Shown here piece by piece: positions 35,554 through 55,174 of a DNA stretch of 64,000 bases. Numbering within the stretch: position 1 is the first letter of the stretch; every line of letters starts with the position of its first letter. The position numbers and the translations under genes were made by a program. Source of the stretch: Gramella sp. Hel_I_59 (GTDB lineage: Bacteria; Bacteroidota; Bacteroidia; Flavobacteriales; Flavobacteriaceae); assembly GCF_006714895.1 (NCBI RefSeq), contig NZ_VFME01000001.1:124001-188000 (forward strand). The letters run 5' to 3'. The notes beneath the pieces are model-generated. The model was not told the DNA's origin and searched no databases. It was given only the letters and a program-made list of their open reading frames with translations.

Positions 35554-35565
35554 AATTTCTAGTTT

Positions 35566-36987: not shown

Positions 36988-36999
36988 AATATGTAGATT

Positions 37000-38165: not shown

Positions 38166-38177
38166 GGTCTCAGGTTT

Positions 38178-40373: not shown

Positions 40374-40375
40374 AA

Positions 40376-40570
40376 TTAATTAAATTTCTCTTTATTGACG
40401 GGTTGATTTTCTTTCGCTGGAGATTTCACAAGTTCATCATCGAACAGCATTCGCACAGAGGGTGTATACACATCATCATACTGGCCTTTCCTGACTGAAA
40501 CTATAAAGGCTACGAAAAAGATGATGGCCACCACAACACTAATAGCCAGTAACATGTAGATAATGCTCAT
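40376..40570 (-). CDS. ccoS: cbb3 oxidase assembly protein CcoS
   Basis: 64 residues, one membrane span (MSIIYMLLAISVVVAIIFFVAFIVSV), followed by RKGQYDDVYTPSVRMLFDDE, which matches the CcoS family signature (short loop with G-Q-[FY]-D-D). Needed for haem/Cu insertion into cbb3 oxidase. It is the first gene of the oxidase operon, 51 bases downstream of a Crp/Fnr-type operator. Confidence 0.92.
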   Translation of the reverse strand: MSIIYMLLAISVVVAIIFFVAFIVSVRKGQYDDVYTPSVRMLFDDELVKSPAKENQPVNKEKFN

Positions 40571-40589: not shown

Positions 40590-40632
40590 TAAAAGTATTC
40601 CGGGGAAAGGCTCTAAAAAATGACGATTGTCA
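40590..40632 (-). promoter_or_regulatory. Crp/Fnr-type operator and -7 box of the cco operon
   Basis: Palindrome TGACGATTGTCA (40621-40632, centre 40626.5) and -7 box TACTTTTA (40597-40590). Centre to first base of box is 29.5, placing the operator near -41.5. Transcription would start about 40586, giving a leader of about 15 bases before ccoS. Confidence 0.75.
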
Positions 40633-40648
40633 GCTTTGAGATCTTATT

Positions 40649-43033
40649 TTATTTTTTAAGCTTTTTTGAGAGAATTTGAGTAGCCAGCGTTGTAAAGATC
40701 ACGATGCTTATCGAGCTTAGCGGCATGAGGATCGCAGCGACCACGGGCATAAGATTCCCGGTGACCGCAAAGGCAAGTCCGGTAATATTATATACAAGGG
40801 ATAGTATAAAGCTCGCCTGGATGATACTGACACCCTTTTTAGCCAGCTGAAAATAATCGGCCAAATTCGATAATATGGATGCATCCATCACGCCATCACA
40901 TGCAGGGGAAAATACATTGATATCTTCTGAAACTGCAATTCCAATTTCACTTTGCGCAAGGGCTCCGGCATCATTCAAGCCATCTCCAACCATCATTACC
41001 TTGCGGCCACCATGCTGTAGTTGCCTGATGAACTCAAGCTTATCACCAGGCTTCTGGTTAAAATGTATTCCTGATTCAACAGGAAGTAAACTTTGCAAAC
41101 GATCGCGCTCCCCTTCATTATCTCCGGAAAGTACAATGATGTATTTGTTCCTGGAAAGTTGCTGAAAAAGGCCAGACATTCCTTTTCTATAAGTATTTCT
41201 AAAACTGAAGCAACCTTTATATTGCGCATTCGAACTTATATGAACTGCAGTTTTCCCATTACTAATTTCTTCGGAATCACTTTCTCCGGTAAAACTTGCT
41301 GAGCCGATTTTTATACGATTTCCTTCAAAATCGCATTCAATTCCTGCGCCTACATATTCTTTATAACTATCGGGAGTTCGTATGCCGTGATGCTGAAGGA
41401 TAGAATACAATGATCTACTTAATGGATGTGAAGAGGCTTTTAGACTACCACCCAGCATTTGAAGTTCTTTATCACTTAGTTCAAGTCCTTCATATTCAGC
41501 AGTGGTTTGTCCCGTCGTGGTGATCGTTCCTGTTTTATCAAAAACCACCGTATCAATCGCCGCCATTCTTTCTATTACCGAAGCGTCCTTTAAATAGATT
41601 CCTTTTTTCCCGAAGATTCTAAGCAGGTTACCAAGGGTAAAGGGCGCAGCGAGGGCGATCGCACAGGGACAGGCAATGATCAATACCGCAGTGAATACGT
41701 TCCATGCTTTTGTTGGATCTGCAAACAGCCAGAAGGTGGTAGCCAGGATTGCAATACTAAGCACGGCAATGGTAAAATTCTTACTGATTCTATTGGTAAG
41801 CGACTGGAAACCGAAAGATCTGTCTTTTTGAAATACCTCATTACTCCATAATTCAGTAAGATAGCTCTGCTCTACCGGCTTGAGAACCTTCAGTTTTATA
41901 ATGCTGCCTTTCTGCCTTCCTCCGGCGTAGACCTTATCTCCTTCAGCTTTATTAACAAGGTCTGCTTCTCCGGTGACAAAACTATAGTCAATGTTTGCCT
42001 GTCCTTCAAGGATTTCAGCATCCATCGGGATAAGCTCTTCATTTCTAATGAGCACAGTATCGCCTTTCCTGATCTTATAGACCTGAACCTGTTCTTCAAT
42101 TTGTTCTTCTTCAGAAGAAATTCGGGTAACAGCAATAGGAAAATATGATTTGTAATCTCTTTCAAAAGAAAGAAACGAATAGGTCTTTTGTTGAAAGAAC
42201 TTTCCGAGGAGAAGGAAAAATACGAGTCCGCTAAGGCTATCGAAAAATCCTGTTCCCAGGTCAAGTACAATTTCTGCAGTACTTCTCACGAATAGCACAA
42301 AAATTCCCAGGGCAATGGGAACATCGATATTCAGAATTCCAGATCTAAGTCCTTTATAGGCAGAAATGAAATAATCCTTACCCGAATAAAATACCACCGG
42401 CAGTGAAAAACTGAACATCAACCAGCGAAACAAATATTTGAATTGATCCAGCCAGAATTCATTGATCTCAAAATATTCAGGAAATGAAAGAAACATGATA
42501 TTTCCAAAAGCAAAACCAGCCACGCCGAGTTTATAGATCAGGCTTCGATCATGCTCAGATTCTTTTTTCTCAAAGTTGTCCAGTGAAATATTCGGTTCGT
42601 ATCCAATCCTGCTAAGTAGTACTACCAGCTCTTTCAGGCTGATCTCTTCAGCAGTAAAACTCAGTCTGATCGTTTTCTTCGGAAAGTCTACCTGCGAACT
42701 TTTCACTCCGCTATGAAGTTTATGAAGGTTTTCAAGGATCCAGATACAGGAACTACAATGAATGGATGGAATACTGAATGATACTATTTGTGTTTTCTCA
42801 TGATCGAATTCCAGAAGCCTGTCTACGATCTCTGCATTTTCGAGGTATTCATATTTATCCTCTTTTAGCTTTGGAGAAATTCCGGGTGCTTCCTGCAGAT
42901 CATAATAATAGGAGAGATCATTACTATTTAAGATCTCGAAAACAGTCTTGCAACCGGCACAGCAAAATGATTTCTCATTATAGGTGATCAATTCCTCCAG
43001 GCAATCCTCGCCGCAATGAAAACATGATTCCAT
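40649..43033 (-). CDS. ccoI: copper-type P1B ATPase of the cbb3 cluster (CcoI/FixI)
   Basis: 794 residues from the ATG at 43033; a TTG at 43042 is in frame but less likely. An N-terminal Cys-rich metal-binding region (MESCFHCGEDC, FCCAGCKTVF) leads to an HMA domain IPSIHCSSCIWIL. Eight spans follow, with the ion-site IIACPCAIALA (near 458), phosphorylation motif VFDKTGTITT, and hinge MMVGDGLNDAGAL. FixI/CcoI exports copper to the periplasmic side for cbb3 maturation. It lies upstream of the ccoS promoter, on the same strand, and has its own operator-promoter. Confidence 0.95.
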   Translation of the reverse strand: MESCFHCGEDCLEELITYNEKSFCCAGCKTVFEILNSNDLSYYYDLQEAPGISPKLKEDKYEYLENAEIVDRLLEFDHEKTQIVSFSIPSIHCSSCIWILENLHKLHSGVKSSQVDFPKKTIRLSFTAEEISLKELVVLLSRIGYEPNISLDNFEKKESEHDRSLIYKLGVAGFAFGNIMFLSFPEYFEINEFWLDQFKYLFRWLMFSFSLPVVFYSGKDYFISAYKGLRSGILNIDVPIALGIFVLFVRSTAEIVLDLGTGFFDSLSGLVFFLLLGKFFQQKTYSFLSFERDYKSYFPIAVTRISSEEEQIEEQVQVYKIRKGDTVLIRNEELIPMDAEILEGQANIDYSFVTGEADLVNKAEGDKVYAGGRQKGSIIKLKVLKPVEQSYLTELWSNEVFQKDRSFGFQSLTNRISKNFTIAVLSIAILATTFWLFADPTKAWNVFTAVLIIACPCAIALAAPFTLGNLLRIFGKKGIYLKDASVIERMAAIDTVVFDKTGTITTTGQTTAEYEGLELSDKELQMLGGSLKASSHPLSRSLYSILQHHGIRTPDSYKEYVGAGIECDFEGNRIKIGSASFTGESDSEEISNGKTAVHISSNAQYKGCFSFRNTYRKGMSGLFQQLSRNKYIIVLSGDNEGERDRLQSLLPVESGIHFNQKPGDKLEFIRQLQHGGRKVMMVGDGLNDAGALAQSEIGIAVSEDINVFSPACDGVMDASILSNLADYFQLAKKGVSIIQASFILSLVYNITGLAFAVTGNLMPVVAAILMPLSSISIVIFTTLATQILSKKLKK

Positions 43034-43057
43034 ATCTCGCAAATAAAGTTAAGGCTG

Positions 43058-43100
43058 CAAAACTGCTCAATTTGATCTCCTTAAAATATGACGGGCGTCA
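43058..43100 (-). promoter_or_regulatory. Crp/Fnr-type operator and -7 box of ccoI
   Basis: Palindrome TGACGGGCGTCA (43089-43100, centre 43094.5) and -7 box CAGTTTTG (43065-43058, one mismatch). Spacing is 29.5, the same as at ccoS. The start would be about 43054, 21 bases before the ATG at 43033. Confidence 0.72.
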
Positions 43101-43146
43101 TTGAATACATTCTTTGCAACTATAAGGTTTTCGCTAGCTCAGGAGG

Positions 43147-43164
43147 TTTTGAAATATTTCAAAA
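43147..43164. promoter_or_regulatory. perfect 18-base palindrome
   Basis: TTTTGAAATATTTCAAAA lies between the two operators of the divergent ccoI / yceI region. The exact symmetry and location suggest a second regulator site; no family is assigned. Confidence 0.5.
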
Positions 43165-43166
43165 GC

Positions 43167-43209
43167 TGACATTCATCATAATTTACTTCCTATCCCTACA
43201 GCATCTTTG
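43167..43209 (+). promoter_or_regulatory. Crp/Fnr-type operator and -7 box of yceI-porin
   Basis: Operator TGACATTCATCA (43167-43178, centre 43172.5) and box CATCTTTG (43202-43209). Spacing is 29.5. The box also contains the TTG at 43207, which therefore is not the start codon. Confidence 0.68.
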
Positions 43210-43233
43210 TACAGATTTAAAAATGTAAATGAT

Positions 43234-43812
43234 ATGAGACCTTACAGCACTTTAATGATGTTCGCAGCAATACTCCTTATAAGTATTGGAGTAAATGCTC
43301 AATCCTACCAACTGAATAATGAAGCTTCCACTCTTAACATAGATGGAACCTCTAACATTCACGACTGGACCATCAAAGCCGAAAACACCGGCGGAAACCT
43401 AAGCCTGGATTTTGATGATTCCAGCCTGGAAGATATCAAACAACTGGAATTTACGGTAATGGCCAAAAGCCTGATGAGTGGAAAAAGCGGGATGGACAAG
43501 AATACCTATAAAGCTTTAAATACGAATAAACATAAGCAGATCACCTTCAAATTACAAGATGTACAGAGTATAGAGAAAGTATCCACTGGTATCTATAATG
43601 TAAAGACCACAGGAAGTTTGGAGATCGCAGGAACAAAACGAGATATAAAACTCGATTTCAAGCTAAAATCTTCATCCAACGCGATCACTCTTACAGGTGA
43701 GCATAAGCTTAACATGACCAGTTTTGGTGTGGAAGCCCCAACAGCAATGTTTGGAACCATCACCACAGGAGAAGATGTCGTTGTAAAATTCGAATCCCAA
43801 TTCAATAACTAA
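43234..43812 (+). CDS. YceI family periplasmic lipid-binding-like protein
   Basis: 192 residues from the ATG at 43234. A signal peptide is followed by mature SYQLNNEASTLNIDGTSNIHDW, the YceI opening. The fold is a lipocalin-like barrel; a late part reads GTKRDIKLDFKL...TLTGEHKLNMTSFGVEAP, typical of YceI. YceI proteins bind polyisoprenoid-type lipids. It is co-transcribed with the porin-like gene behind it (25-base gap) from the low-oxygen-type promoter. A second, weaker YceI-like gene lies at 45199. Confidence 0.9.
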   Translation: MRPYSTLMMFAAILLISIGVNAQSYQLNNEASTLNIDGTSNIHDWTIKAENTGGNLSLDFDDSSLEDIKQLEFTVMAKSLMSGKSGMDKNTYKALNTNKHKQITFKLQDVQSIEKVSTGIYNVKTTGSLEIAGTKRDIKLDFKLKSSSNAITLTGEHKLNMTSFGVEAPTAMFGTITTGEDVVVKFESQFNN

Positions 43813-43837
43813 TAATTCAACCTTAAAATCAATAACT

Positions 43838-45106
43838 ATGAAAACTTTCACTACATACCTAAGTATCGTATTAATGTCTCTCATGGCCATGCCAGCAATG
43901 GCTCAGACGCAACGTGATCTTGATAACTTCCGTTACCGTGACCAGAGAGGTATCAATCAATTTGAAGCTCCAAAGGATACCCTAACCACATTCGATGGTG
44001 TACATGTAAGAGTTGGTGGTGCTTCCACTATCCAGTTCCAGACTTTAAGCCAGGAAAATGACGGACCATTAGAACTGGTAGATCTTGGAAACAATTTCAA
44101 CCTGGCAACAGCCAACCTGGACCTTGATGTAGCCCTATACGATGGGGTAAGAATGCACTTGAGAACTTACCTTTCTTCTCAACACCACAACGAAGCCTAT
44201 GTAAAAGGAGGATATATCCAGGTGGATAAACTTAATTTCATTAGCGAAGGTTTTGCTGAAGATCTAATGGATCACGTACGAATCAAGATTGGTCACATGG
44301 AAAATAACTATGGTGATGCTCACTTTAGAAGAACAGATAATGCCATGTCTACTTACAACCCTTTTGTTGGTAACTACATCATGGATGCGTTTACTACTGA
44401 AGTTGGAGCAGAACTATATTACTTTGATGGTCCATGGTTAGGAATGGTTGGTATTACCAATGGTAAGCTAAATCAAAATGTATCTGATAAAGACCAAACC
44501 AGCCCTTCATTCCTTGCTAAATTAGGATTTGACAACCAGTTTTCTGAAAATGGAAGATTCAGACTTACAGGATCTGTATACCACAGTGCTCATAATGATG
44601 CCAGAGGAGTTTATCTTTACAGAGGTGACCGTGCCGGATCCAGATATTACGAAGTATTGAGTGATGTAGAAGGTGGTGGTGATGGTTTTAGAGGTGGTAT
44701 GGTAGTACCGGATTTCAGAAACAAAATGACCTCTATCATGGTCAACCCATTCGTGAAAGTTGGCGGACTTGAATTCTTCGGAATCTTCGAAACAACTTCA
44801 GGTAGAGATGGTGGCCAGTCTGATAACAGAACCTACAACCAGTATAGTGGAGAGCTTCTTTACAGATTTGGAAACAATAATGATTTTCATATAGGTGGAC
44901 GTTATGGTATGGTAGACGGGGAACTTAGCAGCGGTGAAGATATCGACGTGAATAGATTTCAACTTGCAGCAGGATGGTTCATGACCAAGAACATTCTAAT
45001 GAAACTGGAATATGTAACCCAGGACTACGATGGGTATCCTGTTACAGACATTCACCACGGAGGAAAGTTTGATGGCCTGATGGTGGAGGCGGCAATAAGC
45101 TTCTAA
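43838..45106 (+). CDS. outer-membrane beta-barrel porin-like protein
   Basis: 422 residues. Signal peptide MKTFTTYLSIVLMSLMAMPAMAQ; many alternating hydrophobic strands with Tyr/Phe ends and Gly-Asn-Asp-rich loops; it ends with a C-terminal Phe (VEAAISF), the outer-membrane barrel mark. I see no TonB box or plug domain, so it is not a SusC-type transporter. Likely a porin; the ligand is unknown. It belongs to the yceI transcription unit and is followed by a terminator hairpin. Confidence 0.82.
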   Translation: MKTFTTYLSIVLMSLMAMPAMAQTQRDLDNFRYRDQRGINQFEAPKDTLTTFDGVHVRVGGASTIQFQTLSQENDGPLELVDLGNNFNLATANLDLDVALYDGVRMHLRTYLSSQHHNEAYVKGGYIQVDKLNFISEGFAEDLMDHVRIKIGHMENNYGDAHFRRTDNAMSTYNPFVGNYIMDAFTTEVGAELYYFDGPWLGMVGITNGKLNQNVSDKDQTSPSFLAKLGFDNQFSENGRFRLTGSVYHSAHNDARGVYLYRGDRAGSRYYEVLSDVEGGGDGFRGGMVVPDFRNKMTSIMVNPFVKVGGLEFFGIFETTSGRDGGQSDNRTYNQYSGELLYRFGNNNDFHIGGRYGMVDGELSSGEDIDVNRFQLAAGWFMTKNILMKLEYVTQDYDGYPVTDIHHGGKFDGLMVEAAISF

Positions 45107-45125
45107 TCCAGAATTAATGCTTTTA

Positions 45126-45173
45126 AGGGTAGCATAATTAGACCATCAGGGACTAAATATGCTACCCTCTTTT
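45126..45173 (+). terminator. long-loop hairpin terminator after the porin gene
   Basis: 11-base stem AGGGTAGCATA (45126-45136) / TATGCTACCCT (45158-45168) with a 21-base loop and a CTTTT end. Confidence 0.7.
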
Positions 45174-45198
45174 ACAATAACCTCAAAATTTTCTGATC

Positions 45199-45765
45199 AT
45201 GAAACGACTTTTAATATGCATTGTGTTTGTGCTTTTTGGATGGTCTATCCAGGCTCAGAACGATTACGAAAAAGAAACGATCTGGCTGCTTCCAGACAGT
45301 GAATTGATCATCTCGGGAAGTACGAACGTGAATAAATTTCATTGCGAGTTCGATATAGACCTGATAATAGATAGCAAACAAGTGAAATTTCTGCATGAGC
45401 AGGATCTTATAAAGTTTTGTGATCTGCAGCTAAATTTGCTTACCAAAGGATTTGATTGCGGTAACAGAAAGATGAACTCAGATTTTCAGGATCTTTTAAA
45501 GAGCGATTCGCACCCAAAGATCGTGATCGATGTAGTGCAGGTTAGAAATTTAGCTTCAGAAGAACCCGTAGCAGATATTCGAGTAGAACTGGCTGGTCAA
45601 ACCAACCATTACAAGGTGCCAGTTCAAATACATGAACATCGTTTTAAAGGAAAATTCAGTATGAATATTAGAGACTTTGGCCTCGTGCCTCCTAAAAAAG
45701 CGCTGGGTCTTATCATAGTCGATGAGCATATAGAGGTAGCTTTCGATTTGAAGTTAGCACGTTAG
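45199..45765 (+). CDS. YceI-like periplasmic protein
   Basis: 188 residues with a signal peptide (MKRLLICIVFVLFGWSIQAQ). The opening LPDSELIISGSTNVNKFHCEF and the later KFSMNIRDFGLVPPKKALGLI show a divergent YceI fold (strand pattern G-x-T-N-V-N-x-F-x-C). It carries two or three Cys in the mature part (FHCEF, KFCDL, FDCGN), unlike its neighbour. Likely a lipid- or quinone-binding carrier, by family. It lies behind the porin terminator and before the CoA-transferase. Confidence 0.8.
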   Translation: MKRLLICIVFVLFGWSIQAQNDYEKETIWLLPDSELIISGSTNVNKFHCEFDIDLIIDSKQVKFLHEQDLIKFCDLQLNLLTKGFDCGNRKMNSDFQDLLKSDSHPKIVIDVVQVRNLASEEPVADIRVELAGQTNHYKVPVQIHEHRFKGKFSMNIRDFGLVPPKKALGLIIVDEHIEVAFDLKLAR

Positions 45766-45825
45766 AATAGCTCTAAGATTTTCGTTAAATTATAATGTTG
45801 TCAAAATTTACCAAAACATAAAAAA

Positions 45826-47103
45826 ATGAATGATCTAAAAATTGTATCAGCCCAGGATGCTGTAAAGGAAGTAAGATCTAACCAGAGAGTGTTCCTGCAG
45901 GGAGCTGCTATGACACCAAATATATTAATAGACGCACTTTGTGAGCGCTACCAGGACCTTAAGAATGTAGAAGTCATACAGATCCATACGGAAGGGAAAG
46001 CTCTTTATACGGAAGCTCCCTACCAGGATTCGTTTAAGACCAATAGTTGTTTTGTGGGTGGAAACGTTAGAAAAGCGGTGAATTCAGATTATGGAGCTTA
46101 CATACCTATTTTCCTTAGTGAGATCCATGTGCTCTTCCGAAGAAATATTCTACCCATAGATTTTGCTTTTATCCAGGTTTCGCCGCCAGATAAGCATGGA
46201 TATTGTTCTTTGGGTGTTTCCGTAGATATTACGCTACCTGCCATTCAAAATGCAAAGAAAGTCATCGCCCAGGTGAATCCTCATGTTCCAAGAACACATG
46301 GAGATGGAATTATACATATAAGTCAGATCGATGCTGCTATCGAGGTAAACCAGCCTATTCATGCTGCGCATCTTTCTGAACCTACTGAAATTGAGAAACA
46401 GATAGGGAGGCATGTGGCAGGTCTTGTAGAAGATGGCGCAACGCTACAAATGGGAATTGGAGGAATCCCGAATGTGGTGCTGAATAATCTTACCAATCAT
46501 AAAAGACTGGGAATTCATACGGAAATGTTCTCAGACGGAATTTTACCACTCATCGAAAAAGGAGTTATCACCGGAGAGGAAAAAGAGATCAAAACCGGAA
46601 AACTGGTCACCTGTTTTGCGGTTGGTTCCCCTAAGTTATATGACTTTGTAGATGATAATCCACTGGTGCATTTTAAGGAAGCTGCTTACACCAATGATAC
46701 GGCCATCATTAGGAGAAATCCAAAGGTGACTGCGATCAACTCGGCTATAGAAATTGACCTTACCGGGCAGGTTTGTGCAGATACCATTGGGAAGATTCAG
46801 TACTCGGGAGTGGGTGGACAAATGGACTTTATAAGAGGTGCTTCACTTTCTCATGGAGGAAAAGCGATTATTGCGATGCCTTCTATCACCAAAAATGGAG
46901 TTTCCAAGATAGTTCCATATCTAAAAGAAGGTGCCGGAGTGACCACCACCCGTGCCCATGTGCATTATATTGCTACTGAATATGGAGTGGTTGATCTTTT
47001 CGGGAAAAATTTAAAACAACGCGCCGAGGCATTAATCTCGATAGCACATCCAGATCACCAGGATGAATTAGCAATACAGGCTTTTGAGCGGTTGAACGCT
47101 TAA
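45826..47103 (+). CDS. acetyl-CoA hydrolase/transferase family protein (CoA transferase)
   Basis: 425 residues. N-terminal SAQDAVKEVRSNQRVFLQGAAMTPN, central GIGGIPNVVLNNL (near 214), the catalytic Glu in INSAIEIDLTGQVCAD (near 306), and GVGGQMDFIRGASLS, all as in 4-hydroxybutyrate/acetate CoA-transferases. It moves CoA between acyl-CoA and a carboxylate such as acetate, which can yield ATP with succinyl-CoA synthetase under low oxygen. A strong terminator follows. No Crp/Fnr operator is seen directly upstream. Confidence 0.9.
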   Translation: MNDLKIVSAQDAVKEVRSNQRVFLQGAAMTPNILIDALCERYQDLKNVEVIQIHTEGKALYTEAPYQDSFKTNSCFVGGNVRKAVNSDYGAYIPIFLSEIHVLFRRNILPIDFAFIQVSPPDKHGYCSLGVSVDITLPAIQNAKKVIAQVNPHVPRTHGDGIIHISQIDAAIEVNQPIHAAHLSEPTEIEKQIGRHVAGLVEDGATLQMGIGGIPNVVLNNLTNHKRLGIHTEMFSDGILPLIEKGVITGEEKEIKTGKLVTCFAVGSPKLYDFVDDNPLVHFKEAAYTNDTAIIRRNPKVTAINSAIEIDLTGQVCADTIGKIQYSGVGGQMDFIRGASLSHGGKAIIAMPSITKNGVSKIVPYLKEGAGVTTTRAHVHYIATEYGVVDLFGKNLKQRAEALISIAHPDHQDELAIQAFERLNA

Positions 47104-47130
47104 ATTTAAATTGATTTCTATACTACCTTA

Positions 47131-47172
47131 AGCGGAACGAATTCATACTGAAATCGTTCCGCTACTTATTTT
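47131..47172 (+). terminator. terminator after the CoA-transferase
   Basis: Stem AGCGGAACGA/TCGTTCCGCT (47131-47140, 47154-47163), 13-base loop, then ACTTATTTTTT. Confidence 0.85.
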
Positions 47173-47239
47173 TTATCTGTCTATAACTGAAGTTCAATTA
47201 CTTCAACAAGAATCTTTCAATGATTTAAGTGCTGTTTCA

Positions 47240-47282
47240 TGACTGCGGTCATATTTTAAAAGTATGCCCGATCCTATTTTTA
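47240..47282 (+). promoter_or_regulatory. Crp/Fnr-type operator and -7 box of the truncated-globin operon
   Basis: Palindrome TGACTGCGGTCA (47240-47251, centre 47245.5) and box TATTTTTA (47275-47282), spacing 29.5. Transcription would start near 47286, so the ATG at 47264 is not the start codon; the ATG at 47306 is. Confidence 0.75.
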
Positions 47283-47305
47283 CACCATCATTAAAACTAG
47301 AAATC

Positions 47306-47590
47306 ATGACTTTTTATCAAAAACAACTTTCAGAATTTACAAGAGATTTTTACGCAGGAGCATCTACAGGAATCATAGTTTCAAGTTGTCTTGGATCTAT
47401 TGCAGCCATGCTTATACTAATGAATGGTCACGGACTGGCAGATATGATCCAGCTTGGAATGATCGTAGTGGCCTGTATGTGGTACAATGCTTCAGTACTA
47501 GCACAGTTAAAAGCAAAGTTTGTTTTCAATTCCTTAATTATTAGCATATTAATGAGCACTACCTTTATTCTTATCAATATCTTTCAGTAG
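47306..47590 (+). CDS. small membrane protein, three predicted spans
   Basis: 94 residues from the ATG at 47306. The frame is open upstream to 47264, but that ATG lies inside the promoter. Three spans are predicted (about 12-35, 40-60, 68-92), including SSCLGSIAAMLILMNG and VVACMWYNASVLAQL. The unusual features are short loops and Cys at two places in the spans. I recognise no family. It is directly followed by the truncated haemoglobin gene (stop 47590, ATG 47591), so the pair is co-expressed under low oxygen. Confidence 0.72.
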   Translation: MTFYQKQLSEFTRDFYAGASTGIIVSSCLGSIAAMLILMNGHGLADMIQLGMIVVACMWYNASVLAQLKAKFVFNSLIISILMSTTFILINIFQ

Positions 47591-47986
47591 ATGATGAAAG
47601 ATGTAAAGGATCGAAAGGATATTCATAAACTGGTACTGGAATTTTACAGCAAAGTTCGAAAGAACGAGGAAATAGGTTACTTTTTCAACACGACCATCCA
47701 GGATTGGGAATCGCACCTGGAAAAGATCACCGATTTTTGGGAAAGTAACCTCTTTTTTACCGGTAGTTTTCAAGGAAATCCTGCCATCGCCCACGTAAAA
47801 GTTGACAGGGCACATCAAAATACCATTACCGAATATCACTTTGGTATCTGGCTAAACCTCTGGTTCCAAACCATAGATGAGCTTTATAGTGGAGAAATGG
47901 CATCCCGTCTTAAGAACAATGCCCGCAAAATGTCCACCCACCTCTTTCTAAGGATCTACCAGAGCAGGCAATCAAAAATTAAATAG
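47591..47986 (+). CDS. group III truncated haemoglobin
   Basis: 131 residues, helical. The trHbIII pattern is visible: YFFNTTIQDWESHLEKITDFWESNLFFTGSF early on, and RAHQNTITEYHFGIWLNLWFQTID with the proximal-His region and the W-L block. Such globins bind O2/NO with high affinity and are often found with microaerobic respiration genes. It is the second gene of the operon controlled by the operator at 47240. Ligand function is inferred from the family. Confidence 0.88.
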   Translation: MMKDVKDRKDIHKLVLEFYSKVRKNEEIGYFFNTTIQDWESHLEKITDFWESNLFFTGSFQGNPAIAHVKVDRAHQNTITEYHFGIWLNLWFQTIDELYSGEMASRLKNNARKMSTHLFLRIYQSRQSKIK

Positions 47987-48111
47987 CCGTACTTCTTATT
48001 TTCAAGCTGAATTATTCAGTCAATGCTGGATCTATCGGCTACACTTCATATTTAAATGGAAAACGGCAGTAATTGCCCGTATGAGGTTGACTAAAATGAG
48101 ATTCAGAAGTA

Positions 48112-48879
48112 TTAACCGTGGTATACGAAAATTGGTATCTCTACATTCATCTCTGCGGAAAATCCATGCCTTGAATGAAGCAATCTATCACAAATACTTA
48201 GGTTTTTTCCAACTACGAATATGATATGAAACTGTCTCTGAATTTCTCTGAATAGATCCCTGGTGAATGGTACGGGTGTTTCAAACGGAATATTCCTGTT
48301 ATCCTGATTTGGATATTTTACATCCCCATCTTTGATTTCAAGTAGTGTAAATTGAGACGATTGTAAGAATTGAAGTTTGTCTAGAATATTTTTCTGTTCC
48401 TGAACTGCTAAAACAGCGGGATCTACTGGAAAAACCGTCTTTTCAGGTTTCTCATAAGTACATCCTCCAGGTACGGCAATAATATTGCACTTGATCTTTC
48501 TAACTACCTCATAAGCATGATCTCCAAGGATTGGATGGGCATGCTCATTCTGGCTTACTGCGCCAATAAAAATTAAGTCGATCTTTTTTTCTGTGAGCGC
48601 TTTTCTAATCGCACTAATAAGGTTTTCTGAAGACAGAATAAGATCGAATTTATGCAGTTTTGGTTTTGAATAATTACCAAGAAAATCCACGGTGCTTTGA
48701 AGAGCATCGAGCGTAGAAACCAGTTCCTTTTCAAGGCCTTTACTGGCAGATCTGTCAAAATTGAAATTGTGAATATTCAGAATATGAAAATTCACCTCCT
48801 TATCCTGAAGGAAATCTACCGCATATTTACCTGCATTGGTCGAGGTTTCTGAAAAATCGGTTAGTATTAGAACATTCAT
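48112..48879 (-). CDS. universal stress protein family protein
   Basis: 255 residues: one recognisable UspA domain in the first 145 residues (VLILTDFSETSTNAGKYAVDFL; IDLIFIGAVSQNEHAHPILGDHAYEVVRKIKCNIIAVP), and a second degenerate half. The G-x2-G-x9-G(S/T) ATP-binding loop is weak (GAVSQNEHAHPILGDHA), so it may not bind ATP. It has its own low-oxygen-type operator-promoter. Unlike the Usp at 52041, its second half lacks the usual motif. Confidence 0.82.
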   Translation of the reverse strand: MNVLILTDFSETSTNAGKYAVDFLQDKEVNFHILNIHNFNFDRSASKGLEKELVSTLDALQSTVDFLGNYSKPKLHKFDLILSSENLISAIRKALTEKKIDLIFIGAVSQNEHAHPILGDHAYEVVRKIKCNIIAVPGGCTYEKPEKTVFPVDPAVLAVQEQKNILDKLQFLQSSQFTLLEIKDGDVKYPNQDNRNIPFETPVPFTRDLFREIQRQFHIIFVVGKNLSICDRLLHSRHGFSAEMNVEIPIFVYHG

Positions 48880-48898
48880 CTATCTTCACTTAATACAG

Positions 48899-48941
48899 CG
48901 AAATTAGGTGAAGTCCTTCTGCAAAAAAATGATGAAAATCA
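48899..48941 (-). promoter_or_regulatory. Crp/Fnr-type operator and -7 box of the Usp gene
   Basis: Operator TGATGAAAATCA (48930-48941, centre 48935.5; E. coli FNR-like half-sites TGAT/ATCA) and box TAATTTCG (48906-48899, one mismatch). Spacing is 29.5. Start near 48895, leader about 15 bases. Confidence 0.62.
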
Positions 48942-48968
48942 GTTCTTACAAATTTATTGAGCTAGTGA

Positions 48969-50009
48969 TTATTTCACCATTTTCAAGGCCTGTGAATCCA
49001 GTAGTTTTATATTCCGACCCTCGATCTCAATAAGTCCTTCTTTTTTAAATTCTGAAAGTGTTCTTATTAAACTTTCCGGAGCCATTCCTGCAACTCCAGC
49101 CAGGTCTGCTCTTGAAATTCTGATACTTTTCAGCGGATGTTTTTCGATCCTTTCAGCAAATAAAAGAATAGTGTTGGCCGTTTTCTTTCTTACTGAGCCG
49201 TAGGCCATATCCATTAATTGCTTTTTTAGCTCAGACAGGTTGTTGTTCAAAACCTCAACAAGTTGCATCGTGATCCTGGGGTTTCCAGCAAGAATCTTTT
49301 GAAATTCCTCTCTCGAAACCGTATACAACTGAGTCTCTTCCATAGCGGTGGCATAATCTTCATAGGATGACTGAGGATCATTTGCGTGGTTTCCGAAAAA
49401 ATCATCTTCCTTATACAGCTCGGTGATCAGCTCTTTTCCCTGGTTATCCAGGCGATGAGCCTTTACGATCCCGCGTTTAACGAGATAGAAATAATTCGCG
49501 TGTTTATCTTTCTCGTAAATAGTTTCTCCCTTTTTGAAATACTGGAGTTCCTGTTTTGAGAATAGTTCTCTAAGATCATTCAGGTCCTTCAGCTTCTCCT
49601 CATCCTCAGGCGTTTCCTCTTTGATATAAGATTTTAGAATAGCCACTTTTGCCAGCCTGCTTTCAATAGCACTTAACAACTCTTCTTCTTCAAAAGGTTT
49701 GGTCAAATAATCATCGGCGCCCAGGTCCATTCCTTTGCGAATATCCTTATGTTCGGTTTTTGCTGAAAGAAATATAAATGGAATGTTTAAAGTTGAAGGA
49801 TTTTTACTGAGAGCTTCTAAAACTCCATAGCCGTCGATCTCTGGCATCATGATATCACAAATAATGATATCTGGAATTTCCTGCTTTGCGGTCTCGATTC
49901 CAAGTTTTCCATTAGATGCAGTGATCACATTGTAGTTGGAAAGTTCAAGCAATTCTGCCGTATTTTCCCGTACAGTGACATCATCTTCTATTAGCAACAA
50001 TTTTTTCAT
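48969..50009 (-). CDS. receiver-Crp/Fnr fusion transcription regulator
   Basis: 346 residues in three parts: a receiver domain (1-120; IEDDVTVRE, phospho-Asp in IIICDIMMPEIDG, Lys in YLTKPFEEEEL); a cNMP-binding-like beta roll (about 148-255; GETIYEKDKHANYFYLVKRG); and a Crp/Fnr winged helix (about 275-346) with recognition helix MAPESLIRTLSEFKKEG. The roll lacks the Arg-Ser cAMP-site signature and there is no FNR-type N-terminal Cys cluster, so phosphorylation is the likely input. In the recognition helix, E and R of FNR ETISR are kept (ESLIR) but S is I. It lies 24 bases behind the PAS kinase. Best candidate to bind the operators in this island. Confidence 0.9.
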   Translation of the reverse strand: MKKLLLIEDDVTVRENTAELLELSNYNVITASNGKLGIETAKQEIPDIIICDIMMPEIDGYGVLEALSKNPSTLNIPFIFLSAKTEHKDIRKGMDLGADDYLTKPFEEEELLSAIESRLAKVAILKSYIKEETPEDEEKLKDLNDLRELFSKQELQYFKKGETIYEKDKHANYFYLVKRGIVKAHRLDNQGKELITELYKEDDFFGNHANDPQSSYEDYATAMEETQLYTVSREEFQKILAGNPRITMQLVEVLNNNLSELKKQLMDMAYGSVRKKTANTILLFAERIEKHPLKSIRISRADLAGVAGMAPESLIRTLSEFKKEGLIEIEGRNIKLLDSQALKMVK

Positions 50010-50033
50010 AAGTCGGCTTAAAATTTTATCGGG

Positions 50034-51284
50034 TTAGGACTTATCCATAGGAACTTCTATGGTAAAGGTGGTCCCTTTATTTTCTTCACTTTCAAACTCG
50101 ATCGTTCCTCCAAGATTCTCAAGATGAGTTTTCGCAATGTTCAACCCAATTCCTGTTCCCTGGTCCAGCAATGCATTTTCGGCTCTAAAATATCGTTCAA
50201 AAATATGTTTTTGATCTTTCTTCGGAATCCCCCTCCCCTGATCTTTAATTTTAAAAACGATTAGATCATCATGAAAATCGACGATAAATTGGATGGAAGT
50301 ATTTTCCGGAGAATATTTGATCGCGTTCCCTAATAAATTGGAAAGGATCAATTCAAGGATCTTTTCATCCATAAAAAGCTCTACATCCTCTATATCTTTT
50401 GGATAAGAGATCTCCTGACCATCCTTAAGGGTAATATTCGCATTGTAAATGACTTCGTTAATAAGTCGCTTTAATCCGAATTTTGAATATTTGTACTGTC
50501 CTCTTCCACTATCCAGACGTTCAATGGAAAGAAAATCATTCAGAATATTATTAAGGTAATGAACCTTATTTCTAATGGTCACGAGATGCTTCTCGCGCTT
50601 GGGTTGTTGTTCTTCTTTGGTATATTTTTCAGCAAGAGTTGCAGAAGTAAGGATTCCGCTTAAAGGAGTTTTGAATTCGTGAGATACCAGGGACAGGAAC
50701 TTTGTTTTTAGTTCATTAAGCTCTTTTTCTTTTTGCAGTGCATCTTTGATCTTTTTTTCAGCTTCTTTTCTGCGATTGATCTCTTCGCCCAGTTCAACGT
50801 TCAGGTTTTTGAGATCTTCTACACTTTCACTTAGTTCCCGGGTTCTGACTTCAATTTTCCCTTCAAGCTCAGTATTTAGCTCTCTAATTTGCCTTTGGGT
50901 TTCTTTACGGATCGTAATATCTATGATTAGCGACATCACATACCTTTCACCCTCGATCTCAAATGGATTAAGACCTGCTTCCACAGGAAAAAGTGAACCA
51001 TCCTTTCGCACACCATAAAGATCACGACCGTGACCCATCTGGCGCTTTTCACTATTATCGATAAACTGGTCTACATGTTTATGGTGTACATGATGGTAAT
51101 CTTTAGGTACCAGACGATCAAGATGTTGGTTCAATAATTCACCTTTCTGGTAACCAAACATTTCTTCAGCAGCCAGATTAGCCGCAACTACTATCTGACT
51201 TGAGTCGACTACAATGATACCTTCAGAAGCTGCCTGGAACAGTAAATTAAGAACATTCTTATTGTCGAAAAAGTTTTCCTGCAA
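50034..51284 (-). CDS. FixL-like PAS histidine kinase (soluble)
   Basis: 416 residues without membrane spans. One PAS domain (about 10-125) is followed by a coiled coil (130-200), HisKA with phospho-His in FLSLVSHEFKTPLSG (near 205), and an ATPase domain (NLLGNAIKYSPEN, KDQGRGIPKKDQ, GTGIGLNIAK). Within the PAS, VPKDYHHVHHKHVDQFI aligns without gap to the haem-His loop of FixL: His67 takes the place of the FixL haem ligand, and Arg87 (GHGRD) that of the distal O2-contact Arg. This suggests a possible haem O2 sensor, but many non-haem PAS domains share this motif. The receiver-Crp gene follows directly. Confidence 0.9.
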   Translation of the reverse strand: MQENFFDNKNVLNLLFQAASEGIIVVDSSQIVVAANLAAEEMFGYQKGELLNQHLDRLVPKDYHHVHHKHVDQFIDNSEKRQMGHGRDLYGVRKDGSLFPVEAGLNPFEIEGERYVMSLIIDITIRKETQRQIRELNTELEGKIEVRTRELSESVEDLKNLNVELGEEINRRKEAEKKIKDALQKEKELNELKTKFLSLVSHEFKTPLSGILTSATLAEKYTKEEQQPKREKHLVTIRNKVHYLNNILNDFLSIERLDSGRGQYKYSKFGLKRLINEVIYNANITLKDGQEISYPKDIEDVELFMDEKILELILSNLLGNAIKYSPENTSIQFIVDFHDDLIVFKIKDQGRGIPKKDQKHIFERYFRAENALLDQGTGIGLNIAKTHLENLGGTIEFESEENKGTTFTIEVPMDKS

Positions 51285-51348
51285 AATGGGTTTCGTTTAA
51301 GATCACTAAGTTAAAATCTTTTTGATGATCCTCTAGAAAGTTGAAATC

Positions 51349-51573
51349 TTATTCGTCTAAACCCGGAGTATGATCCTCATACCCATCCTTGAAAGTTTTG
51401 CTGGTTCTATAATCATCGGTAAGGACTTTATAAACTGTAATGAGAAAAAGAGCCTGACCTGCGATCATAAGATAAAAAACCGGTGCAAAACTAATTCCTT
51501 TAGAAGCAAGTATGGTGAGAAGCAATAAGATCACACTGGTAATGATCAAAAAAGTGATGCCTGTAATTTTCAT
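51349..51573 (-). CDS. small membrane protein, two spans
   Basis: 74 residues: two hydrophobic segments (ITFLIITSVILLLLTILA and VFYLMIAGQALFLITVYKVL) and an acidic hydrophilic tail ending GYEDHTPGLDE. No family recognised. It lies upstream of the PAS kinase on the same strand with a 64-base gap, so it might be transcribed with it. The low-oxygen operator at 51658 faces the other way. Confidence 0.6.
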   Translation of the reverse strand: MKITGITFLIITSVILLLLTILASKGISFAPVFYLMIAGQALFLITVYKVLTDDYRTSKTFKDGYEDHTPGLDE

Positions 51574-51657
51574 CGTTTTCTCTTTAATTTACAGATAATT
51601 AGAGGTAATGATTCTTAATATTTATCTAAAATGTTTGAGGATAGATTAATCAATTCA

Positions 51658-51700
51658 TGATTTCTGTCATATTTTTTCATGGATGTATCTTTTAGCTTTA
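51658..51700 (+). promoter_or_regulatory. Crp/Fnr-type operator and -7 box of the hpf-usp unit
   Basis: Operator TGATTTCTGTCA (51658-51669, centre 51663.5) and box TAGCTTTA (51693-51700), spacing 29.5. Start near 51704, so the ATG at 51679 is not the translation start; 51718 (or 51721) is. Confidence 0.75.
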
Positions 51701-51717
51701 CGTATCAGCCAAAAATT

Positions 51718-52024
51718 ATGATGTTATGCTCAACCAGATACACTATAAAAATTCCTGAAAGTCCTGCACTTAGCAAATTTACGAACAGGAAATTAAATCT
51801 GCTTCGTCGAAGATATGATACCATACAGAATTTGCATGTTCATTTTAAGCTAGAAAACACCAGGCAGGGAAGTGCTAAGGTTTGCGAGATAGAATGCACA
51901 ATTCCAGGCTCCAGCATTCATGCCAGTGCTACCAAGGGAATCTTTTGAACACGCACTAAAGACGGCTGTGAACGAGTTGACCAAACAGCTTGAAAAAAGA
52001 AATGCCGTATTACAGATTGTCTAA
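51718..52024 (+). pseudogene. hpf: ribosome hibernation factor (HPF/RaiA family), one-base frameshift
   Basis: The first frame (51718-51948) reads MMLCSTRYTIKIPESPALSK ... VCEIECTIPGSSIHASATKG and stops. The next frame continues EHALKTAVNELTKQLEKRN and ends with TAA at 52022-52024. Joined, it is an HPF of about 102 residues: beta-alpha-beta-beta-beta-alpha with the ECTIPGSSIHA strand and AVNELTKQLEK helix. Removing one T from the T4 run (51943-51946) restores the frame. It is either a real lesion or a sequencing error. HPF blocks ribosomes during energy starvation; here it is under the low-oxygen promoter. Confidence 0.78.
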
Positions 52025-52040
52025 TTAAAAATTAAGTATC

Positions 52041-52874
52041 ATGAAAACTATATTTGTACCCGTAGACTTTTCAAAATATTCTGAAAATGCCCTTGAAGTG
52101 GCCGCAAGCATCGCAAAAAAGCATGGTTCGCGGATCATTCTCGTACATATGCTGGGAATAGCTAATTCTTATCTCACCAAAGACCAGCAGCAGGAAGTAT
52201 TTAACGTGATGTATTATATCAAGATCGCAGAACAGCATTTTAAAGAACTTCGGAAAAAGAAATATCTCAAAGGGATTGAAGTGGTGGAAGTAATGAAGCC
52301 TTATCGAATTTTCTCTGAAATTAATACCATCGCTACAGAACATGACAGTGATTTGATCGTGATGGGATCCCATGGAGCGACGGGGGTAAAAGAAGTTTTT
52401 ATAGGTTCCAATACTGAAAAGGTAGTACGTACAGCAGATATTCCCGTACTCGTTATCAAGGAAAGAAGTACAGACTTCCATATTGATAAAGCGGTGTTCG
52501 TAACCGATTTTGATGATAGCAATCAGGATTCTTTTAAAAAGGCCAGAAAGTTCTTTAGTTATTTTAACGTTGAGCCTAAGTTGCTATATATCAATATTCC
52601 TGAAAAATTCATGAGCACGGTCGAAATAAAACGCAATGCGCATAATTTTATGAGTACCGCAGGGATAGATCCTGCAGACTTCGACAAACACGTAGTATTT
52701 TATGCTGATTATACCGCTGAAAGAGGTGTGTTTAATTATTGTGAAGAGGCGAAAATAGATGCTATCGCCATTTCCACGCATGGTAGAAAAGGCCTGGGTC
52801 ATTTCTTCTATGGAAGTGTAGGAGAAGATGTAGCAAATCATGTTGATGTTCCAGTAATCACCTTGAAGATTTGA
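52041..52874 (+). CDS. universal stress protein, two UspA domains
   Basis: 277 residues in two Usp repeats. The first begins MKTIFVPVDFSKYSENALEVA and ends with the ATP-loop MGSHGATGVKEVFIGSNTEKVVRTADIPVLVI. The second begins near 150 (KAVFVTDFDDSNQDSFKKA) and ends STHGRKGLGHFFYGSVGEDVANHVDVPVITL. Both loops keep G-x2-G-x9-G-S/T. It lies 16 bases behind the HPF gene and shares its low-oxygen promoter. Role: stress or energy-starvation response, by family. Confidence 0.93.
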   Translation: MKTIFVPVDFSKYSENALEVAASIAKKHGSRIILVHMLGIANSYLTKDQQQEVFNVMYYIKIAEQHFKELRKKKYLKGIEVVEVMKPYRIFSEINTIATEHDSDLIVMGSHGATGVKEVFIGSNTEKVVRTADIPVLVIKERSTDFHIDKAVFVTDFDDSNQDSFKKARKFFSYFNVEPKLLYINIPEKFMSTVEIKRNAHNFMSTAGIDPADFDKHVVFYADYTAERGVFNYCEEAKIDAIAISTHGRKGLGHFFYGSVGEDVANHVDVPVITLKI

Positions 52875-52880
52875 AAATAA

Positions 52881-52914
52881 AAAAAGGGAGCTATAAATTG
52901 TTAGCTCCCTTTTT
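52881..52914. terminator. bidirectional terminator between usp and deoD
   Basis: 13-base stem AAAAAGGGAGCTA/TAGCTCCCTTTTT with an 8-base loop; convergent genes use it from both sides. Confidence 0.9.
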
Positions 52915-52933
52915 CATCTGAAAAAATAATGTA

Positions 52934-53632
52934 CTAGAAAGAATTCAGCGCTATTTCCACCATTTCGTTCAGTTTCTGCTCTCTCATTTCTGCGGAAATC
53001 TCTTTAGTAGTTAACAGTGAATCAGAAATAGTTAGAATAGATAATGCTTTTACTCCAAATTTGGCAGCCAGCGTGTAGATTGCCGAAGTTTCCATTTCAG
53101 CACAAAGCACTCCATATTTAGCCCACTGTTTAAAATAATCAGGTTTCTCATCATAAAAGAAGTCAGATGACAGAACGTTACCAGCATGAAATGGAATAGT
53201 GTTTTTCTCAGCGAAATTTATGGCCTTTAGTAAAAGGTCGATATTGGCGGTTGGAGCAAAGTCGGCATTACCAAATACAGCTCTGTTCAAGGAAGAATTT
53301 GTAGAAGCCGACATTGCGATCACGATATCCATCAATTTTAGCTCTGGCTGGAAAGCACCGGCGCTCCCAACCCTGATAAGGTTTTGAACTTTATAGGTCT
53401 TCAGCAATTCGTGACAATAAATGAGCGTAGATGGAATGCCCATTCCCGTTCCCTGGACTGACACCCTTTTTCCCCGGTAAGTTCCGGTAAAAGCAAGCAT
53501 CCCACGAATATTATTATAGCAAAAACTATCTTCGAGAAAGGTTTCAGCGATCCACTTTGCCCGTAAAGGATCTCCGGGAAGTAACACCGTTTCGGCTATA
53601 TCACCTTTTTTCGCTTCTATATGTATACTCAT
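52934..53632 (-). CDS. deoD: purine-nucleoside phosphorylase (DeoD type)
   Basis: 232 residues. PNP/UDP family 1 pattern: IAETVLLPGDPLRAKWIAE (near 12), VSVQGTGMGIPSTLIYCHEL (near 62), LIRVGSAGAFQ, and ETSAIYTLAAKFGVKALSILTISD (near 182) with the catalytic Asp. It releases the base from purine nucleosides using phosphate. Hexameric DeoD-type length. It has no operator of the low-oxygen type at the right distance. Confidence 0.95.
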   Translation of the reverse strand: MSIHIEAKKGDIAETVLLPGDPLRAKWIAETFLEDSFCYNNIRGMLAFTGTYRGKRVSVQGTGMGIPSTLIYCHELLKTYKVQNLIRVGSAGAFQPELKLMDIVIAMSASTNSSLNRAVFGNADFAPTANIDLLLKAINFAEKNTIPFHAGNVLSSDFFYDEKPDYFKQWAKYGVLCAEMETSAIYTLAAKFGVKALSILTISDSLLTTKEISAEMREQKLNEMVEIALNSF

Positions 53633-53747
53633 GGCTTTTGTATTGCTTTAGTTTCTGATGTGATTCATAGATCGATCAATTCATGTGTTTAGGTAAGCTT
53701 TCTTACGAATATCGTCGAATCAAAGATTGAAAAGTATCGCTTACTAA

Positions 53748-55115
53748 TTATACCGTCATTGAAAATAATTGTGCATCAGGTCTTTTTCTGTTCAATCTAA
53801 GATCAAATGCCATACATACATTTCTTACGAATGGCCTTCCTTTCTCGGTGACAATGATATAATTTGAATCTCTTTCAATGAGTCCGTCATCTGCCATCTC
53901 CTGTAAACTAATAAGCACATCGGGTAATCCCTGGAAAGTTTGATCTGCCGTATACCAGGAAGTTTTCAGCTTACACATTAAATTGAGAACATGTTTTCTA
54001 ATAATCAGATCTTCTTCATTTAGAATATGTCCCCTTAATAAGGGTAGCATCCCATTATTCACCAGGTTTTGATATTCTTCCACACCCTTAACATTCTGCG
54101 CGAAACCATACCAGCTATCACTAATCGCAGAAACACCAAGCCCTAACATAGCCTGAGTTTTAGAAGCCGTGTAGCCCATAAAATTTCTATGCAGGGTTTT
54201 ATTATCTAATGCCATACTGAGAGTATCGGTTTTTAGAGCAAAGTGATCCATCCCGATTTCTACATAACCAGCATCCAGTAAGATTTGTTTACCAGTTTCA
54301 TACTGCGCGCGTTTTTCAGCAGCGGTGGGAAGATCTTTCTCATTAAAACCTCTCTGCCCGCTACCTTTGATCCACGGAACATGGGCATAACTATAAAAAG
54401 CGATCCTGTCTGGCATTAGCTCCAGGGTACGTTGCATGGTATAAATGATATCATTTCTTGTCTGAAATGGCAATCCAAATATGATATCATGACCTACTGA
54501 AGTAAAGCCAGCTTCCCTCGCGTTTTGGGTTGCGAGGAGGACATTTTCAAACGACTGAACTCTATGAATAGCTTTCTGAACTTCTGGGTTATAATCCTGA
54601 ACTCCATAACTTACCCGGTTAAATCCAAACTTTGCAAACAGCTCGAGGTGTTCCCTGCTGGTATTATTGGGATGCCCTTCAAAACTAAATTCGGCAGCTT
54701 TAGATTTCTTAGCGCGTTTGAATATTCCTTCCAGTAGGTAGCCCAGGTTTTCAGCAGAAAAGAAAGTTGGAGTTCCTCCTCCCAGGTGTAGTTCCCTGAT
54801 GACCGGTTTTTCCGGAAATAAGGTACAATACATCTCCCATTCTTTTAGAACCGAATTGATATAGGGAACCTCCATTCCATGGTTTTTTGTAATTCTTTTG
54901 TTACAACCACAAAACGTGCAAAGACTTTCACAGAAAGGTAGATGAATATATAGGCTAATACCTTCAGATGAATTTGATTCTTTAAAACTTTGAGTAAGCG
55001 AGGATTTCCAGGCATTTCCTGAAAAGCTGTCCTGATCCCAGTAAGGCACAGTTGGATAGCTGGTATACCTGGGACCTTGGATATTATACTTTTGAACTAA
55101 GGCAGAGTGAGTCAT
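53748..55115 (-). CDS. hemN: oxygen-independent coproporphyrinogen III oxidase
   Basis: 455 residues. The radical-SAM cluster is CESLCTFCGCNKRITK (near 64; CxxxCxxC plus the HemN-specific fourth Cys). It is preceded by YIHLPFC, and followed by ELHLGGGTPTFF and the HemN domain with YSYAHVPWIKGSGQRGF. The length fits HemN proper, not HemW. It converts coproporphyrinogen III to protoporphyrinogen IX without O2, needed for haem under microaerobic growth, which suits the cbb3 genes. The promoter has the best match of the seven operator-promoters. Confidence 0.96.
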   Translation of the reverse strand: MTHSALVQKYNIQGPRYTSYPTVPYWDQDSFSGNAWKSSLTQSFKESNSSEGISLYIHLPFCESLCTFCGCNKRITKNHGMEVPYINSVLKEWEMYCTLFPEKPVIRELHLGGGTPTFFSAENLGYLLEGIFKRAKKSKAAEFSFEGHPNNTSREHLELFAKFGFNRVSYGVQDYNPEVQKAIHRVQSFENVLLATQNAREAGFTSVGHDIIFGLPFQTRNDIIYTMQRTLELMPDRIAFYSYAHVPWIKGSGQRGFNEKDLPTAAEKRAQYETGKQILLDAGYVEIGMDHFALKTDTLSMALDNKTLHRNFMGYTASKTQAMLGLGVSAISDSWYGFAQNVKGVEEYQNLVNNGMLPLLRGHILNEEDLIIRKHVLNLMCKLKTSWYTADQTFQGLPDVLISLQEMADDGLIERDSNYIIVTEKGRPFVRNVCMAFDLRLNRKRPDAQLFSMTV

Positions 55116-55131
55116 AGTAAAATTTTGAATT

Positions 55132-55174
55132 CAAAACTATGAACAGGATCAAGAAGGAAATATGACAAGCGTCA
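55132..55174 (-). promoter_or_regulatory. Crp/Fnr-type operator and -7 box of hemN
   Basis: Palindrome TGACAAGCGTCA (55163-55174, centre 55168.5) and exact box TAGTTTTG (55139-55132). Spacing is 29.5. Start near 55128, leader about 13 bases. Confidence 0.8.

Follow-up and report, generated by a model that had tools for sequence, protein, structure and literature searches.

Several described regulatory systems resemble an island of genes that we analysed in Gramella sp. Hel_I_59, a member of the Flavobacteriaceae. The island lies in a stretch of 64,000 nucleotides (contig NZ_VFME01000001.1, positions 124,001 to 188,000), here called the window, to which coordinates refer unless marked otherwise. 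It contains seven similarly built promoters, the gene of a histidine kinase and that of a response regulator, REC-Crp, in which a receiver (REC) is fused to a Crp/Fnr-type DNA-binding module. Among the described systems, FNR is an iron-sulphur (Fe-S) protein and a direct oxygen sensor. The DosS/DosT-DosR dormancy regulon of mycobacteria has a haem kinase input, as predicted for the island, and similar targets, namely universal stress proteins (Usp), small heat-shock and hibernation-type proteins; unlike the island, it relies on a NarL-type regulator and on GAF haem sensors and does not control a cbb3 oxidase. The NmpRSTU system of Myxococcus xanthus likewise combines a haem-dependent kinase input with cbb3, copper ATPase and HemN targets, but has a protoglobin-type sensor, a phosphorelay and an NtrC-like regulator where the island has a Crp fusion; universal stress proteins are named 12 times in that text, as judged from a word count and from its references (PMC11841059).

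The FixL-FixJ-FixK chain of Alphaproteobacteria shares with the island a FixL-like PAS kinase, a final Crp/Fnr-type regulator without an Fe-S cluster, cco and hemN targets, and a TTGA-type operator with the same TGA-N6-TCA core (PMC4999443). The island differs in that a single protein unites receiver and Crp module, whereas FixJ and FixK are separate proteins, and in that it belongs to another phylum, uses another sigma factor and promoter, and has Usp and HPF genes in its core. A separate, NarL-type FixJ acting on fixK was not seen at 80 related loci, the rest of the genome not having been searched for NarL-type regulators; the island chain is therefore FixL-FixJ-FixK-like but stands outside that cascade. 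We consider there to be a good probability that the island is a self-contained regulon under its own two-component pair, a collapsed FixL-FixJ-FixK chain, and the receiver-Crp protein with its FixL-like kinase is a probable shortened version of this known bacterial oxygen-response chain. In the open-licence PMC literature, covered by titles and abstract openings with several narrow queries, we found neither a description of a receiver-Crp/FixL pair from Bacteroidota nor an account of how marine Flavobacteriia sense a drop in oxygen and induce a high-affinity oxidase. As the analysis names a likely regulator, a sensor, a base-level operator and a target list conserved in 31 genera, each step is directly testable.

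Each of the seven promoters combines a TGAY-N4-RTCA palindrome with a -7 box resembling TAnnTTTG, and all the palindromes and boxes claimed in an earlier note on this DNA are present at the positions it gave. Four promoters lie on the minus strand: that of the ccoS-ccoNO-ccoQ-ccoP-ccoG-ccoH operon (40590..40632; operator TGACAATCGTCA at 40621-40632, box TACTTTTA at 40590-40597), that of ccoI (43058..43100; operator TGACGCCCGTCA at 43089-43100, box CAGTTTTG at 43058-43065), that of the Usp gene directly downstream of the regulator gene (48899..48941; operator TGATTTTCATCA at 48930-48941, box TAATTTCG at 48899-48906) and that of hemN (55132..55174; operator TGACGCTTGTCA at 55163-55174, box TAGTTTTG at 55132-55139). 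The plus strand carries the yceI-porin promoter (43167..43209; operator TGACATTCATCA at 43167-43178, box CATCTTTG at 43202-43209), the promoter of a small membrane protein and a truncated globin (47240..47282; operator TGACTGCGGTCA at 47240-47251, box TATTTTTA at 47275-47282) and the hpf-usp promoter (51658..51700; operator TGATTTCTGTCA at 51658-51669, box TAGCTTTA at 51693-51700). The distance of 29.5 nt claimed between palindrome centre and first box base is exact, and the gap between operator and box is 23 nt at 7/7 sites, with gap sequences that differ from site to site. A TAnnTTTG-like box is likewise found at all seven, but the boxes are loose: those of ccoI and yceI start with C, and in the usp box C replaces the last T.

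This constancy of spacing goes far beyond what chance would give, in line with the argument of the earlier note. Boxes were scored by their matches to the six fixed bases of TAnnTTTG, with a cut-off of at least 5/6; a random position reaches this cut-off in 0.8% of cases. The window contains 12 palindromes, or 24 orientations, seven of which have such a box at gap 23. Among gaps of 1-400 nt, 326 have no box, 67 have one and 6 have two, and gap 23 alone has seven. In a study of Flavobacterium transcription start sites the box is numbered T-12 to G-5, which places the palindrome centre at -41.5 and agrees with the class II Crp/Fnr position that had been claimed (PMC6847099). Starts predicted from this numbering thus give the TGA-N6-TCA operators a class II Crp/Fnr promoter geometry. 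For 20 of the 21 downstream gene families with at least three sites, the median distance from predicted start to ATG, counted from one base past the start, falls between 5 and 54 nt; the family listed as ccoNO has a median of 210 nt because ccoS lies between.

The genome scan that the earlier note had proposed (3.44 Mb; intact palindrome, at most one box mismatch) returned the seven island sites and three others, at C1:1474173-1474215, C1:1515148-1515190 and C1:1938099-1938141 in genome coordinates, and a pattern with a 24-nt gap, in effect a control, had no match in the genome. In relatives, 97% of the sites have a T after the palindrome; all three distant sites lack it, and we excluded them from the regulon on this ground. 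When the flanking T and a stricter box were required, three matches were left, 3/3 inside the island, which makes the regulon of the source strain essentially local. The excluded site at C1:1515148 precedes a gene that, judged by eye, reads like a DJ-1 family protein, and that at C1:1938099 a hexapeptide acyltransferase gene resembling serine acetyltransferase.

The same layout recurs in relatives. With the regulator gene as query we fetched 80 loci of up to 21 kb (L061-L140), in which 359 of 938 oriented palindromes have a box at gap 23 (mean of 11.4 at gaps outside 22-24; maximum of 24 at any other gap). With one locus for each of 31 genera, the figure is 156 of 402 (mean of 5.4 and maximum of 9 at other gaps). 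At gap 23, each of five control palindromes had a count of 0 or 1, although two of them were found 4 times or never and TTGATN4ATCAA, as a special case of the motif, is no neutral control. At sites outside L061-L067 the palindrome is followed by T in 97% and preceded by C or A in 88%, preferences that played no part in the site search.

By a lenient per-gene test, which is also passed by 203 of 3000 stretches drawn at random from these loci, real sites included, a site lies upstream of the relatives of ccoS in 23/23 cases, of ccoI in 20/23, of yceI in 13/13, of the small membrane protein in 16/16 and of hpf in 22/24, and upstream of the best Usp match in 70/77 and the second in 40/72. The hemN relatives have one in 9/22, two of which (L079, L085) look spurious; all promoters but that of hemN are thus kept in most relatives that retain the gene nearby. 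No site was found in these loci upstream of the neighbouring regulator (0/80), phosphorylase (0/29) and CoA transferase (0/10) genes, and the kinase gene has one in 10/78. The globin, which follows the small membrane protein, has no site of its own (0/9). Counted by target, the sites precede Usp genes (129 sites, 76 loci), a gene for a 134-residue protein (38 loci), and cco, hpf, ccoI, YceI and Hsp20-like genes, the last named by reading of the sequence; this list points to low-oxygen survival as much as to respiration. The conserved 134-residue protein has a promoter of the same layout in 38/80 loci (e.g. L086), which exceeds the cco genes.

That a class II Crp/Fnr-type activator acts on all seven promoters, as the earlier note claimed, is well supported by promoter retention and by motif counts that follow two Crp/Fnr-type regulators across 100 family genomes. 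The note overlooked the regulator itself, which the island encodes. REC-Crp (48969..50009, minus strand; 346 residues) consists of a receiver (PF00072, 99.8 bits), a cyclic-nucleotide-binding-like domain (PF00027, 60.5 bits) and a Crp-type helix-turn-helix (HTH; PF13545, 49.4 bits), all over cut-off. As expected of a response regulator, it has a phospho-acceptor aspartate and a conserved lysine (D52 and K104), and these residues, together with E312 and R316 of the recognition helix, are invariant in 81/81 aligned proteins. Its Crp part was inspected for the cysteines of an FNR Fe-S cluster and contains no cysteine. In cAMP-responsive CRP, a glutamate and an arginine of the cyclic-nucleotide cassette bind the phosphate; compared with the mycobacterial Crp/Fnr-family chains 3h3u and 3d0s, REC-Crp has Asn for this Glu and Tyr for this Arg, and we rejected cAMP control for their absence. 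A full-length model predicted from the single sequence reached a pLDDT of 41.9 and was discarded.

The adjacent kinase (50034..51284, minus strand; 416 residues) is composed of a FixL-like PAS domain, HisKA and HATPase_c. We take H200 and R220 of FixL, the latter also in the title of structure 1y28, as the reference haem histidine and oxygen-contact arginine. In the kinase, the haem histidine His67 is kept in 76/79 aligned rows and the oxygen-contact arginine Arg87 in 67/79, and by sequence the protein thus has the parts of a FixL-type kinase: a PAS domain carrying both the proximal His and the distal Arg, together with HisKA and HATPase. A LOV photosensor, whose fold is close, was rejected since the LOV cysteine motif was not seen in the sequence. 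The kinase adjoins REC-Crp in 80/80 loci (incomplete in one) and in 11/11 further loci, two of them from another family, and the receiver and Crp module form one protein in 80/80. By its domains and residues, the island regulator is thus a Crp protein fused to a receiver and accompanied by a FixL-like kinase, rather than a stand-alone oxygen-sensing FNR.

By analogy with the FixL chain, the soluble kinase would bind haem in its PAS domain and most likely autophosphorylate once oxygen leaves the haem. The phosphate would pass to Asp52 of the receiver, and the activated REC-Crp dimer would bind (C/A)TGAY-N4-RTCAT centred at -41.5 and there activate the Bacteroidota sigma-A holoenzyme at the TAnnTTTG box in class II fashion. 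FixJ and FixK would in this way be merged in one protein and one step of the chain dropped, and the regulon so driven would comprise the cbb3 oxidase, copper pump, HemN, YceI, globin, Usp and HPF genes. If this holds, REC-Crp is a class II Crp-type activator governed by phosphorylation and not by an Fe-S cluster.

The most durable of the alternatives accepts the pair and its regulon, and supposes that the PAS domain senses nitric oxide (NO), carbon monoxide (CO), redox state or another ligand in place of oxygen. NO and CO can both serve as ligands of haem PAS domains (titles of structures 1dp8 and 1lsv), the truncated globin and YceI of the island would suit other stresses, and the oxygen-contact arginine of FixL is missing in 12/79 kinases. 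Yet the high-affinity oxidase, its copper pump and oxygen-independent haem synthesis are a classic low-oxygen set, and the best matches of the PAS domain by sequence are structures of the oxygen sensors FixL and DosP. We consider a non-oxygen signal unlikely; kinase and target genes together suggest low oxygen.

Which protein reads the operator was addressed by genome surveys. Of 100 Flavobacteriaceae genomes, 42 encode a full-length REC-Crp, 56 an FNR-like protein of about 225 residues with conserved cysteines, 21 both and 23 neither. By this tally, assembled by hand from separate counts, the strict motif has a median of 10 matches in genomes with REC-Crp only (21/21 with at least three), 7 with the FNR-like protein only (30/35), 15 with both (21/21) and 0 with neither (15/23 with none, 22/23 with fewer than three). 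The reversed pattern gave a total of 17 matches against 858 for the motif. FNR-like proteins were counted from 49% identity, which places G043 and G020 (40-44%, one match each) in the last class; G002, whose match covers the receiver only, was not counted as having REC-Crp; and many genomes of the last class are small, the 7/23 of at least 3.0 Mb having 0 to 2 matches. Exceptions are G048 (neither regulator, 21 matches; 82% complete, 6% contaminated) and G026 (FNR-like protein, zero matches). The source genome belongs to the class with REC-Crp only, with zero FNR-like copies. Since the motif is kept in genomes with REC-Crp alone, REC-Crp is likely the protein that reads the operators in the source genome. 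REC-Crp as the exclusive owner of the motif was rejected, as the motif also occurs where only the FNR-like protein is present.

In four genomes that we inspected, the FNR-like gene adjoins ccoI; all four have the same operators in front of ccoI and ccoS, and three of the four in front of hemN or usp. The HTH regions of the two proteins have 18 of 30 residues in common. The FNR-like protein (L174, L175, L178-L187) has C4, C7, C53 and C106 in 12/12 sequences and C29 and C59 in 11/12; Cys7 and Cys106 are 99 residues apart, a spacing also found for two of the cluster cysteines in E. coli FNR. The island resembles the systems of FNR and of the flavobacterial FNR-like protein in class II geometry and in the operators and core targets of sister genomes; REC-Crp differs in carrying a receiver and in lacking the conserved cysteines, and its signal would come via the kinase. 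The two proteins are probably interchangeable on one operator set, a natural case of two input modules apparently acting on the same operators. A takeover of old FnrN sites by FixLJ-FixK has been proposed for Caulobacterales, a precedent for the principle of regulator replacement on existing sites (PMC4999443). For Flavobacteriaceae oxygen control, we give about even chances to a scheme in which a FixL-type haem kinase directly phosphorylates REC-Crp, which replaced or joined a cysteine-containing FNR on conserved operators, the regulon in this genus having shrunk to the island.

It could also be that another Crp/Fnr protein of the source genome runs the promoters and that the REC-Crp gene is a mere neighbour. 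Two further Crp-type HTH proteins are encoded there, at C1:1935391 and C1:2186977, and the distribution of the motif supplies two points that weigh against REC-Crp as its reader. The motif is found in genomes without REC-Crp, and it does not track REC-Crp beyond Flavobacteriaceae and their sister family: among 296 genomes sampled across the phylum for REC-Crp and motif, 43 in nine families have REC-Crp, and the 26 REC-Crp genomes from other families of the class have 0-6 strict matches (7 have none), much like their neighbours without REC-Crp. A phylum-wide REC-Crp operator was rejected for this lack of association; outside the two families the operator may be spelled differently or REC-Crp may have another role. 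On the other side, 30 of the 31 Flavobacteriaceae genomes with at least three matches and no REC-Crp have the FNR-like protein, of which the source genome has no copy; the protein at C1:2186977 sits beside a differently spelled operator, TAACN4GTTAC; and G010, G039, G073 and G087, with neither regulator, have 2-5 further matches to the Crp-type HTH, those of G039 and G073 all below cut-off, and zero motif matches. We regard control by another such protein as quite improbable. For other Crp/Fnr homologues of Flavobacteriales, one study predicts carbon sensing (PMC8510549). A third alternative does without a common regulator and derives the layout from AT-rich promoter sequence or from the duplication of one ancestral promoter. 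The sites are indeed found in short intergenic stretches rich in AT, and the relatives do not count as independent cases, but we regard this alternative as most improbable: enrichment occurs at one gap only (equal enrichment at many gaps was checked for and not observed), in 31 genera and before unrelated genes, the reversed pattern is rare, the gap sequences vary and neighbouring genes have no site.

A TauE-like gene and cydAB, for cytochrome bd, come immediately after the second Crp/Fnr gene (C1:2183559-2187606, L177 7559-11606). The TAACN4GTTAC palindrome between the Crp and TauE genes is separated from a -7 box by 23 nt, as in the island, and a fatty acid hydroxylase gene is preceded by a further site of this kind; these sites possibly mark a parallel class II regulon whose operator differs. 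The REC-Crp/kinase pair occurs in other Bacteroidota families too. In G368, a genome of a distant family of the phylum, there are 19 motif matches and no REC-Crp match.

On the minus strand, the island genes downstream of the sites comprise the cbb3 oxidase genes (34402..40570; ccoS, a ccoNO fusion, ccoQ, ccoP, ccoG and genes for a FixH-like and a DsbD_2 protein), which we infer to form one operon and whose FixQ match is below the curated cut-off, a ccoI-type P-type metal ATPase (40649..43042), a Usp family protein (48112..48879) and HemN, an oxygen-independent coproporphyrinogen III oxidase (53748..55115; TIGR00538, 411.6 bits, over cut-off). Those on the plus strand encode a YceI-like and a 422-residue protein (43207..45106), the small membrane protein (94 residues) with a group III truncated globin (131 residues; 47306..47986) and an HPF/YfiA-like protein with a Usp protein (51718..52874). 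The globin matches the group III truncated haemoglobin 2ig3 (E 1.8e-13). The "porin" label that the 422-residue protein had been given finds a sub-threshold porin match and no Pfam match. The HPF match is below the curated cut-off, and the hpf start listed previously precedes the predicted -7 box, the ATG at 51718 being probably the real start. A PHROGs search with a 74-residue open reading frame at 51349-51573 gave no match. Towards the end of the hpf frame (51718-52025) there is a frameshift, at about 51930-51948, whereas the copies at L061, L063, L064 and L065 are intact; either the source strain has truly lost the C-terminus of the protein or the assembly is wrong here. Just past the cco operon, at 31589-33769, lies the gene of a 726-residue histidine kinase with several PAS domains.

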